This document shows, one piece after another, positions 1-4,227 of a DNA stretch of 38,474 nt (its first letter is position 1; every line of letters starts with the position of its first letter). This stretch comes from Gemmatimonadota bacterium. GTDB taxonomy: Bacteria; Gemmatimonadota; Gemmatimonadetes; Gemmatimonadales; Gemmatimonadaceae. The stretch lies in the NCBI GenBank assembly GCA_003221805.1, contig QHUA01000143.1, positions 10,455-48,928 on the forward strand, read 5' to 3'. A model generated the notes under the pieces. It made no database searches, was not told the DNA's origin, and saw only the letters and a list, made by a program, of their open reading frames with translations. The position numbers and the translations under genes are program-made.

Positions 1-1489
1 ATATAGTTGGCGCCACACCGCACAGCGCTCCGCCCGAGCGCAGCCGCTGCTCCTGATCCCAATCGATCACGATGAACGGAACCGGGTTCGTGGTGTGTGC
101 CGTGTGCGGACCGCCGGTCTCCGGATCGATCAACATCTCCGCGTTGCCATGATCCGCCGTCACGATCAGGCGCATGCCGGCTGTTTCTGCCGCCTTCAGA
201 ACTCTCGCCAGCGATTGGTCGACCGTCTCCACTGCCTTGATCGTCGCTGGAATAGAGCCGCTGTGCCCGACCATGTCCGCATTCGCGTAGTTACAGAGAA
301 TGAAATCGTGTTCGCCTGAAGAAATACCCTTCACCAGCGCGTCCGTTACTCCTTCGGCACTCATCTCCGGCTTTAGGTCGTACGTCGCCACTTTGGGACT
401 GGGGACCAGTACGCGATGCTCGCACGGAAAAGGAGCCTCGACGCCGCCGTTGAAGAAGTAAGTCACGTGCGGATACTTCTCGGTTTCCGCCGTCTTCAGC
501 ATGTCCAGCCCATGCGACGACAGCACCTCGGCCAGAATTTGCACCATCGATGTCGGCTCGAACGCCACCGGGACGTCGAACGTCTTGTCATAATTGGTGA
601 GGGTCGTGACAGTCACATTCGGGCCAGAAGTGGTGTCGAAGCCCTCGACGTTCCGCTCGATCAGCGAGCGCACGATCTGCCGCATCCTGTCGGAGCGATA
701 GTTGAAGCAGATGACTGCGTCACCGTCCCTCATCGGCGCCACCGGTTTCCCGTTCTCGACGATCACGACCGGCAGCATGAACTCGTCGGTCTTGCCCGCT
801 TCATAGGATTTGCGGATTGCTTCAAGCGGATCGGTCTCGCGGGCACCCTCGCCGAGGACGACCGCGCGATACGCCAGCTGGGTGCGATCCCAGCGACGAT
901 CACGATCCATCGCGTAATAGCGTCCCGAGACGCTCGCGATTTTCGTTGGAGAGCCGATCTTCCGGATGTAGTCCAGCAGTTCCTGCATGTAGCCGAGCGC
1001 CGACTTCGGCAGAGTATCGCGCCCGTCGAGGAAGGCGTGAATTGCCACCTTATCGATACCTTCTCGCTTCGCGAGATCGAGCAGCGCAAAGGAGTGCTTG
1101 TCGATGGCGTGCACGCCGCCCGTGCCGATCAGCCCCACCAAATGCAAGGTGCCACCGTTGCCCTTGACCTGACGGCATGCGCCCACCAGCGCGGGATTGG
1201 TGTAGAAGCTCCCCTCGGCGATGGCCGAAGAGATGCGTACCAGATCCTGCATCACGACGCGGCCCGCGCCGAGATTGAGGTGTCCGACTTCGCTGTTCCC
1301 CATCTGCCCCTCGGGCAGACCGACGCGCAGCCCGGATGCTTCGAGCAGCGTGCGCGACCCGCGAGCCCAGAGAGAATCCCACGTCGGGGTGTCTGCTAGA
1401 GCGATAGCGTTTCCGATAGTTTCGGCGCGGTAGCCCCAGCCATCGAGTACAATTAGCGCGACTGGCCGCGCCCGCTGTGTGCTTGCCAT
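1..1489 (-). CDS. gpmI: 2,3-bisphosphoglycerate-independent phosphoglycerate mutase (3' end runs off the window)
   Basis: Reverse-strand reading from the ATG at 1489 gives MASTQRARPVALIVLDGWGYRAETIGNAIALADTPTWDSL...GLPEGQMGNSEVGHLNLGAGRVVMQDL, and near the window edge ...WDQEQRLRSGGALCGVAPTI. These match GpmI LDGWG, GQMGNSEVGH and LCDVAPT motifs. Absent from the ORF track because it has no stop inside the window. Confidence 0.93.
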   Translation of the reverse strand, partial: MASTQRARPVALIVLDGWGYRAETIGNAIALADTPTWDSLWARGSRTLLEASGLRVGLPEGQMGNSEVGHLNLGAGRVVMQDLVRISSAIAEGSFYTNPALVGACRQVKGNGGTLHLVGLIGTGGVHAIDKHSFALLDLAKREGIDKVAIHAFLDGRDTLPKSALGYMQELLDYIRKIGSPTKIASVSGRYYAMDRDRRWDRTQLAYRAVVLGEGARETDPLEAIRKSYEAGKTDEFMLPVVIVENGKPVAPMRDGDAVICFNYRSDRMRQIVRSLIERNVEGFDTTSGPNVTVTTLTNYDKTFDVPVAFEPTSMVQILAEVLSSHGLDMLKTAETEKYPHVTYFFNGGVEAPFPCEHRVLVPSPKVATYDLKPEMSAEGVTDALVKGISSGEHDFILCNYANADMVGHSGSIPATIKAVETVDQSLARVLKAAETAGMRLIVTADHGNAEMLIDPETGGPHTAHTTNPVPFIVIDWDQEQRLRSGGALCGVAPTI

Positions 1490-1536: not shown

Positions 1537-2208
1537 ATGGAAATCTTCAGACCCAGGCAGGAATCCGGCTTGGAAACGCGTCGTCGCCCGGAACGCGCGG
1601 GCGAAGGCGATCGTAGGCGCGGATCTTGGCGCGATTTTCGGCGCGCGTATCCGAGCTTCGTTTTCGTGCTGGGGCTCGGCCTGATCGCGATGGTCGCCGT
1701 CGACGCGTGGCTCATCGCCAAGAGAGTCACATACAATCACGACGTGAAGGTGCTCCGTGAGCACATGACGGACGCCGAGCGCGAGCGGACCGATGCCATC
1801 GTGCAGTCGGAGCAAAACAAGCTTCAGATCGCGATCGAGTTGGCGAAGCGTCAGGCAAAGTTTGACAAGAAACTTCACCTCAACGTTTCCGTCGACAGTG
1901 CGCGGATGTATCTGACGAGAGAAGGAGCGCTGCTCCGCGAGATGCCGGTTCAGTTCGGGCCCGAGCGAGTCCCTGCCGAATCATCGAGCGCTCCACCGGC
2001 GGCGCTGCCCCGGGGGGAGCGAACCGTCGCCGATATTTCGGATACCAGGATCACGCTCGATGGAGGAACGCAGATTCTGACTTCGTCCAGTGCTAACCTG
2101 GCCAATGACTCGACGCCTGTTCCGCCCGGGGCGCTACGGATCAGAAAGGAAGACATGGACGCGATCATGCCGAACCTTAGTGCCGGTATGAAGGTATACT
2201 TTTACTGA
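1537..2208 (+). CDS. Membrane-anchored degenerate L,D-transpeptidase (YkuD-like) paralogue, predicted non-catalytic
   Basis: N-terminal TM (FVFVLGLGLIAMVAVDAWLIA). Its C-terminus GALRIRKEDMDAIMPNLSAGMKVYFY aligns with the next gene's GCVRMRNEDIERLYPMVSIGTPVYIY. Confidence 0.7.
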   Translation: MEIFRPRQESGLETRRRPERAGEGDRRRGSWRDFRRAYPSFVFVLGLGLIAMVAVDAWLIAKRVTYNHDVKVLREHMTDAERERTDAIVQSEQNKLQIAIELAKRQAKFDKKLHLNVSVDSARMYLTREGALLREMPVQFGPERVPAESSSAPPAALPRGERTVADISDTRITLDGGTQILTSSSANLANDSTPVPPGALRIRKEDMDAIMPNLSAGMKVYFY

Positions 2209-2273: not shown

Positions 2274-3131
2274 ATGGGAGTGAGCAAGATCTTTTCGTAC
2301 GGCGGCAAGACCGTCTGGATGCTGATCACGGGATTCGTGATTGCAGCGATCCTCAGTGTCATGCTGCTCACGAGAACCGCGGAGCTTCGTTACCAGCGCG
2401 ATGTCAATCGCATGGTCTATAACGACAACCTCGGCGTTCTCAACGAGGTGAAGTCGAAGCTCGGCATGTCGGGGGACAGTCTCAAGGCACTGCTCAACGA
2501 GAGCCCGGCCGAAGCGGCCAACCTACCGTACATCGTCGTCAGCATGGCGGACCACCGACTGTGGTACAAGCAGGGCAAGGAAATCCTGTTCGAGGCACGT
2601 GTTGCGACGGGCAGTGGCAAGGAGCTGGTCGGCGGCGCGAGCGGGCAGTGGCGATTCGAGACACCGCGCGGCCGACTGACGGTGAAGGCCAAGGATGAGG
2701 ATCCCGCGTGGGTTCCGCCCGATTGGCATTACGTCGAGCAGGCTCACAAGAAGGGACTCGGCATCATCCACCTCGATGCCGGTGAGGCGATCCCAACCGG
2801 CGACGGCGGGGTCGTCACGACCAAGAACGGCGAGGTCGTTCGACGTTACGGTAACGGCTCCACGGTGTCTTTAGGTGGAGGGGTCGAAGGAAAGGAGATC
2901 GTAGTGAATGGAAACATTGTTGTGCCGCCTTACGGCACCACTGCACGCAGATACATGGGCGTCCTCGGAACGCGCCGCCTCGAACTCGGGGACGGCTATG
3001 GCATTCATGGTACTGACCATCCCGAAACCATCGGGCAGTCGGTGAGCCACGGTTGCGTGCGCATGCGCAACGAAGACATTGAACGCCTCTACCCAATGGT
3101 GTCGATTGGCACTCCCGTATACATCTATTAG
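2274..3131 (+). CDS. L,D-transpeptidase (YkuD domain), membrane anchored
   Basis: N-terminal TM; catalytic signature GYGIHGTDHPETIGQSVSHGCVRMRNEDIERLY. Confidence 0.92.
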   Translation: MGVSKIFSYGGKTVWMLITGFVIAAILSVMLLTRTAELRYQRDVNRMVYNDNLGVLNEVKSKLGMSGDSLKALLNESPAEAANLPYIVVSMADHRLWYKQGKEILFEARVATGSGKELVGGASGQWRFETPRGRLTVKAKDEDPAWVPPDWHYVEQAHKKGLGIIHLDAGEAIPTGDGGVVTTKNGEVVRRYGNGSTVSLGGGVEGKEIVVNGNIVVPPYGTTARRYMGVLGTRRLELGDGYGIHGTDHPETIGQSVSHGCVRMRNEDIERLYPMVSIGTPVYIY

Positions 3132-4227
3132 TCCAGAAAAGCCCTTGGCGTCGGCGGTCGTAGGAGAGAGAAGGGAGCACCCAACGGGCGAAGAGCTCGA
3201 GCTGCCCGATGATCTCCCGGTCCGCAAGCGCCACACGGCACGCATGGTCTGGTTTGCCATGGGGGCTGTCGCCGCTGTTGGCGCGTTCCAGTTTCTCCAG
3301 GCAGCCGACGACGCTACCGACCGGCCGATCGGAACGTATATCGCGCGCTCGATGGTTCCGATCGCCGAGCCCTCTATCAGCGCGTTCGGCGCCAGCGGTG
3401 AGGTGAAGCTCGCGTTCGCGCTGCCGGCGCAGGAATTCTCCTATCCTCTCGACGTCCACGGCGACCCCACCGCCCTGCAGTACGCGTGGATCCGAGTCGG
3501 TGATTCGGCGTTGGCGACTGCCGCCCAGCCGCTGACCGGCGACAAAGTCTCCGCCCCGCCACAGGCGGGCTTCTATCGGCTCACCCTTCTGAAGAGCGGC
3601 CAACGGCGCTCGGTGGAAGGCCTGACGCTGGCCGTTCTCGTTCCGTTCACGGAGAAAGAGAAGGGAATGCTGCGGGGATATCGCATCGGGACGTATCTCG
3701 GTGAACGGATGCGAGGCAGGACGCCGCCGCCCGAAGGATTCCTCGAGATCAGCCCTGCCGACGTCGATCTGCCCATCACCAAGCACCTCAAGGTCGGCGA
3801 TTTCCTGAACCACGATCAGCAGGGAAAGTGGCCGAGCTACTCGGCAATCAATCCAAAGCTCCTCGACAAACTGGAGCTGGTGATTCAGGAGATCGCGCGC
3901 TGGCACGGCGACAAGGCGGTGGCCGACATCGACATCGATGTGCATTCCGGATTTCGCGCGCCCGAACACAATCGCCGGGTCCAGCGTGCCGCTAGTGATA
4001 GCCAGCACCAATATGGTGACGCTGCGGACGTGGCGATCGACGCGAATGGGGACGGTAAAATCACCGCTATCGACAGCCGCATGGTAGGTTTGGCGGTGGA
4101 GATCGTCGAGCTCAAACATCCAGACCTGGTTGGAGGGCTCGGCATCTACACGAGTGGTCACTCCAGCACGAATTACGTACATATTGATGTACGGGGCAGG
4201 CGCGCACGGTGGCGGGGCGGCGGGTGA
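3079..4227 (+). CDS. M15-family (DUF882/peptidase M15A-like) murein peptidase with N-terminal TM; true start probably downstream of 3079
   Basis: IDVHSGFRAPEHNRRVQ...SQHQYGDAADVAID...NYVHIDVRG matches the M15 HxxGxAxD and terminal His zinc-ligand pattern. The first ORF codons overlap the preceding CDS, so a later start (e.g. ATG 3244, MVWFAMGAVAAVGAFQF) is likely. Confidence 0.8.
   Translation: MNASTQWCRLALPYTSISPEKPLASAVVGERREHPTGEELELPDDLPVRKRHTARMVWFAMGAVAAVGAFQFLQAADDATDRPIGTYIARSMVPIAEPSISAFGASGEVKLAFALPAQEFSYPLDVHGDPTALQYAWIRVGDSALATAAQPLTGDKVSAPPQAGFYRLTLLKSGQRRSVEGLTLAVLVPFTEKEKGMLRGYRIGTYLGERMRGRTPPPEGFLEISPADVDLPITKHLKVGDFLNHDQQGKWPSYSAINPKLLDKLELVIQEIARWHGDKAVADIDIDVHSGFRAPEHNRRVQRAASDSQHQYGDAADVAIDANGDGKITAIDSRMVGLAVEIVELKHPDLVGGLGIYTSGHSSTNYVHIDVRGRRARWRGGG

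Follow-up and report, generated by a model that had tools for sequence, protein, structure and literature searches.

A degenerate YkuD protein as the probable membrane partner of its neighbouring L,D-transpeptidase in Gemmatimonadota

L,D-transpeptidases (LDTs) are carbapenem-sensitive enzymes that make 3-3 crosslinks. Regulators of hydrolases are known among the non-catalytic relatives of wall enzymes; to our knowledge, the need for a partner is not generally recognised among LDTs themselves. The window analysed here, a 38,474-nucleotide stretch of contig QHUA01000143.1 from a soil bacterium of the Gemmatimonadota, contains an intact LDT gene directly preceded by a related open reading frame whose product, P, has alanine at the position of the catalytic cysteine. 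Both reading frames, P at 1537..2208 and the LDT at 2274..3131 on the forward strand, are present as described in a first-pass annotation of the locus, which proposed that P is a non-catalytic partner or regulator of the enzyme. The question raised by this arrangement is whether P is a failing copy, an enzyme of another kind, or a working part of the system encoded beside it. P is considered most probably to be an ancient YkuD pseudoenzyme that serves the adjacent LDT as its dedicated, non-catalytic partner in the membrane.

P is a 223 aa YkuD-related membrane protein, assigned as a non-catalytic pseudo-L,D-transpeptidase from its profile match to LDT, its predicted YkuD fold, the lack of a Pfam match and the lack of a motif Cys. 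An Arg-rich cytoplasmic tail precedes a TM helix at about residues 39-60 (1651..1716), predicted from hydrophobicity and from a model helix spanning 39-75; a periplasmic helical stalk follows at about residues 61-110 (1717..1866; model helices 39-75 and 79-109), reading ..LREHMTDAERERTDAI..LAKRQAKF and containing the conserved residues E81, R82, D86, R105 and A107. The degenerate YkuD domain occupies residues 112-223, about 112 residues (1870..2205), as delimited by the profile match, the model, the fold search and the alignment.

Single-sequence searches of Pfam and NCBIfam with P returned no named family, and a sequence search of solved structures gave chance matches only; P falls below the gathering score of PF03734, for which 10 of 27 relatives show a weak match (best E 0.012). 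The resemblance to the LDT noted in the first pass emerges on direct comparison: the C-termini of the two proteins match in pairwise BLASTP (E 3e-5), and the family profiles align through hhalign across 208 columns, beginning at the TM helix and ending at the last residue (probability 97.6, E 3.4e-12). In other families of the class, the P profile also recovers short, catalytic YkuD enzymes, with values between 1e-8 and 1e-15.

The AlphaFold2 model of P is of moderate confidence (mean pLDDT 77, pTM 0.46), with the domain mostly at pLDDT 82-91 and a weaker loop at 141-160; a longer P orthologue was likewise modelled with moderate confidence (mean pLDDT 82, pTM 0.56). Foldseek places the P model closest to PDB entry 4lpq (E 3.8e-7, probability 1.00), and the top 50 listed PDB matches are all L,D-transpeptidases or YkuD; the top matches of the longer orthologue are also L,D-transpeptidases (E 2.8e-7, probability 1.00). 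TM-scores at the best matches are modest (0.37-0.53) because the stalk was included in the query and the domain is reduced. P is thus predicted to adopt the YkuD β-sandwich, and the possibility that its fold would prove unrelated to YkuD finds no support in either model. In predicted fold P resembles the YkuD-type LDTs (PF03734; B. subtilis YkuD, 1y7m; X. cellulosilytica, 4lpq; LdtMt2); it differs from them in lacking the Cys and the motif histidines and in scoring below the Pfam cut-off.

The partner LDT is a 285 aa protein with a TM segment, a stalk and a catalytic YkuD domain (PF03734 E 1.3e-24, with LDT relatives in the PDB). Its catalytic His245 lies in an HGT motif (3006..3008) and Cys261 in a SHGCVR motif (3045..3062), both invariant in the LDT alignment; an LDT-specific insertion at about residues 153-228 (2730..2957) is a probable capping loop, as judged from the alignment and the capping loop described in PMC12729407. 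In P, the aligned nucleophile motif is VPPGALR (2119..2139) where the LDT has VSHGCVR, with PPGALR under SHGCVR, so that codon 2131-2133, Ala199, stands at the catalytic Cys position, as first read. The His-containing segment had been reported missing; it is instead replaced, the LDT segment LGDGYGIHGT aligning with LDGGTQILTS in P (ADIS..LDGGTQILTS under GDGYGIHGT in the profiles). Neither the catalytic Cys of (S/T)XGCphiR nor the catalytic His of phiGphiHG(S/T) is present in P, and no Cys occurs in the last 60 residues of any of 78 distinct P ORFs, a set that includes two halves of one broken metagenome copy. The nucleophile position among these ORFs is Ala, Ser, Asn, Gly, Gln or Thr, with Ser common; Gly198, Arg201 and other structural residues are conserved. 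On the basis of this homology and the conserved loss of the nucleophile, P is classed as a YkuD-derived pseudoenzyme.

The earlier estimate that about 100 residues of core were lost holds in part. A block of about 30 residues (DAWEVPAWVYADRGLP...GALG) is kept by longer orthologues in most genera of the family and has disappeared from the genus of the window and from certain others, which makes the P of the window a shortened form; the remaining 60-75 or so residues are the LDT insertion, which in the alignment is missing from every P and from the short YkuD enzymes of the class. Minimal P versions of 166-167 aa, still directly upstream of LDT, occur in one genus, g2 (L086:1850-2350 and L087:1854-2357, minus strand), and show repeated shortening of the pseudo-domain. 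As P also evolves faster than LDT, its YkuD domain may act as a scaffold under loose constraint.

P is genetically coupled to one clade of LDTs. A first survey of the class found an intact LDT directly downstream of P at 23/23 loci, often with overlaps of 1-4 nt. Across 118 genomes of the window's own family there are 76 P loci and 78 loci of the partner LDT clade; 72 of the 76 are paired with a partner-clade LDT, with P upstream at 3-293 bp. Counted per genome, and uncorrected for phylogeny, both genes occur in 74, LDT only in 4, P only in 2 and neither in 38. Three of the genomes counted as LDT only (G157, G203, G066) do carry a P immediately 5' of the LDT, in a short and diverged form; the unpaired LDT of G260 and the unpaired P of G412 lie at contig ends, P and LDT are on separate contigs in G207 and G404, and G373 has a P fragment only. 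In several P-free genomes of the family, distant LDT paralogues persist, and P is not found next to these. Paralogues of the LDT that share its capping insertion and carry THGC motifs, again with no P adjoining, were observed in G190 (loci L081, L084) and G195 (locus L082).

The pair extends beyond this family. It was found at 9/9 loci examined in a second family of Gemmatimonadota, f8 (8/8 plus G010), and in 5 of 277 searched genomes of Desulfuromonadia, where the genes are adjacent in 5/5; the carriers belong to Geobacteraceae/Desulfuromonadales and include a cultured isolate, Geomesophilobacter sediminis (Geobacteraceae). The P and LDT trees agree at depth, separating f8 from the own family together with Desulfuromonadia, the latter being monophyletic in both; branching within the family is poorly resolved. 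Congruent trees and a patchy presence in Desulfuromonadia fit transfer of the pair as a unit. As the two genes rarely occur apart, in this phylum or in the second, P is most likely a helper subunit rather than a decaying copy. This near-perfect adjacency, together with co-occurrence with a single LDT clade, the intact pair in a second phylum and low dN/dS, supports the role first suggested for P.

Four other explanations, namely decay, residual enzyme activity, inhibition, and an anchor or sensor role without contact, are all ranked below the partner reading. A decaying LDT duplicate without function would account for the lost catalytic residues, the shortened domain and the faster evolution of P, yet it is scarcely credible: P dN/dS is about 0.1-0.2, the frame is open at every locus except one broken metagenome copy, and P is not sister to the neighbouring LDT. 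Values for the closest relatives (76-79% identical) are 0.08-0.14, and for three other close pairs 0.08-0.19, low in both halves of the protein, compared with about 0.045-0.08 for the closest LDT pairs; all are rough, as dS is high, and P values remain well below 1. The broken copy (L113:4001-4682) is interrupted in frame on a metagenome contig with an ambiguous base and an intact LDT downstream, and is probably a sequencing or assembly fault. The first-pass annotation, which argued against simple decay from the clean frame, had allowed that relatives might carry a catalytic orthologue at this position; none does in any relative examined, so P is an old pseudoenzyme under purifying selection, and its catalytic loss predates the split of the two Gemmatimonadota families and the Desulfuromonadia branch. 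Recent decay to a pseudogene is rejected given this absence, the conservation and the dN/dS. An origin of P as a recent tandem copy of its neighbour, implied earlier, appears unlikely as well: in the YkuD-domain tree P forms one clade (100/99) beside the short YkuD enzymes and apart from the partner LDT, and a single clade of P and partner LDT is disfavoured (AU p 0.047), a weak result with long branches that leaves this origin tentative. It is very improbable that P retains enzymatic activity through a different nucleophile or chemistry; the conserved Gly198, Arg201 and other structural residues, and the frequency of Ser at the Cys position, would suit such an enzyme, but this position varies even among close relatives, the histidines of both HGT and SHGC are gone, and the motif region holds no invariant replacement nucleophile.

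As a negative regulator, P would occupy or cap the LDT, keeping it off until a signal or limiting 3-3 crosslinking; the genetic coupling is the same as for a partner, a pseudoenzyme that keeps its fold could compete for substrate or a docking surface, and P, as the first gene, would be made ahead of the enzyme. This is nevertheless rather unlikely, as no LDT inhibitor of such a type appears in the review PMC12729407 and the precedents found (LdtF, DipM) are stimulatory. It is also unlikely, and a little more so, that P acts with no contact to the LDT, as a peptidoglycan-binding anchor or sensor, or as a substrate protein linked to peptidoglycan by the LDT, the two being merely co-expressed. 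LDTs of other bacteria do attach proteins to peptidoglycan (PMC12729407), and binding of stem peptides could survive in a dead YkuD domain; against this, the domain homology itself favours pairing, the association is with one LDT clade and not its paralogues, and the pair recurs in a second phylum with congruent trees.

The preferred reading, P as dedicated partner, envisages a heteromeric complex, as suggested by the architecture the two proteins share, by their adjacency and co-inheritance, and by the restriction of P to a single LDT clade. Both proteins are predicted to cross the inner membrane once and to carry a periplasmic helical stalk and a C-terminal YkuD domain, and would pair through stalk and domain; lacking nucleophile and capping loop, P may dock next to the LDT's active site or cap and render the enzyme competent, whether by positioning, stabilising or gating it, where 3-3 crosslinks arise. 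Contact between P and LDT, which operon membership does not by itself prove, activation over inhibition, and the subunit ratio are inferred. A stronger form of this reading, an obligate two-subunit LDT in which a YkuD enzyme works only with a co-encoded dead YkuD subunit, conserved in Gemmatimonadota and, as an intact gene pair, shared with Desulfuromonadia, is put forward tentatively, as somewhat less probable than not.

The pair is probably part of a three-gene operon. The gene following the LDT encodes an M15/DUF882 peptidase with an N-terminal TM segment and a probable TTG start at 3145 (3145..4227, forward strand; PF08291 E 1e-6, PF05951 7.6e-6), and is MepK-like. MepK (DUF882) of E. coli is an LD-specific endopeptidase needed when LDTs make crosslinks (PMC12729407). 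The protein in the window shares with MepK/YcbK the M15_3/DUF882 match; it is longer and has the TM segment, and with an NCBIfam MepK match of 8.9e-4 and 19.2 bits against a cut-off of 185 it is too diverged for the name. It may open 3-3 crosslinks, and P, LDT and peptidase would then form a small operon that makes and opens them. Of 27 distinct own-family loci whose flanks are long enough, 26 have an M15/DUF882 gene 3' of the LDT, in some cases as two tandem copies; the count covers the own family, flanks in f8 being too short to judge. A DUF882 gene also follows the pair at L131, and no M15/DUF882 gene was seen after the pair at L133. Two tandem M15/DUF882 genes after P-LDT were observed in several genera (L101:5827-7796, L124:5720-7812, L125:5882-7866 and, on the minus strand, L104:1-2225). 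No consensus terminator was found on the forward strand between the P, LDT and M15 genes, and a promoter scan, which is uninformative for Gemmatimonadota, gave no consensus site. On the other side, a divergent gpmI-like phosphoglycerate mutase gene (1..1489, minus strand, running off the window start) lies 47 nt from P; where the flank is long enough, almost every own-family locus keeps this position, and the gene is probably a bystander.

The closest known parallel is LdtF of E. coli, a YkuD paralogue whose co-expression with LdtD or LdtE increases 3-3 crosslinking and which is reportedly no LD-transpeptidase itself (PMC6428754); the same protein, DpaA (LdtF/YafK), is a hydrolase later described as an Lpp-peptidoglycan amidase (PMC8263019, PMC10653827). 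The likeness lies in a YkuD paralogue that raises the 3-3 crosslinking of other LDTs, and orthology with P is not claimed; P differs in lacking Cys and His, in being membrane-anchored and in being encoded beside its LDT. EnvC, NlpD, ActS and DipM are degenerate wall-enzyme relatives that regulate active wall enzymes (PMC10336132, PMC8360153, PMC8416486), as with the inactive LytM protein DipM, which stimulates autolysins (PMC10336132). These regulators have a LytM fold, target hydrolases and are usually not encoded beside their targets, whereas P is a YkuD pseudoenzyme adjoining a YkuD synthase, with no Pfam match to LytM (peptidase M23) and a predicted YkuD fold. By analogy with LdtF and with the inactive LytM proteins, which activate hydrolases (PMC10336132), the effect of P is more likely to be stimulation. 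A literature search, which left most subscription journals outside its reach, returned no YkuD pseudoenzyme or dedicated LDT partner beyond LdtF, and nothing relevant on Gemmatimonadota peptidoglycan. What is new here is that pseudoenzyme regulation of wall enzymes, a known principle, would extend to a synthase family; a function is suggested for a protein family that neither Pfam nor NCBIfam names, in a phylum that has received little study, and the presence of the pair in a cultured Geobacteraceae isolate makes the switching and placing of LDTs directly testable.

A different arrangement was observed in other families of the class (L061:1692-3112; L072:1174-2813, minus strand; L069:1554-2996), where downstream of a THGC YkuD LDT, or fused to it, lies a second ORF or region that lacks a catalytic motif. 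The first strand of this ORF or region resembles P (e.g. LVLKSHGAILREYPL); homology to P is not significant and the arrangement is rare. These loci are possibly a second, independent combination of LDT and pseudo-LDT; a third YkuD enzyme (TDGC/TNGC) lies ahead of the LDT and the second ORF at L061 and L072.
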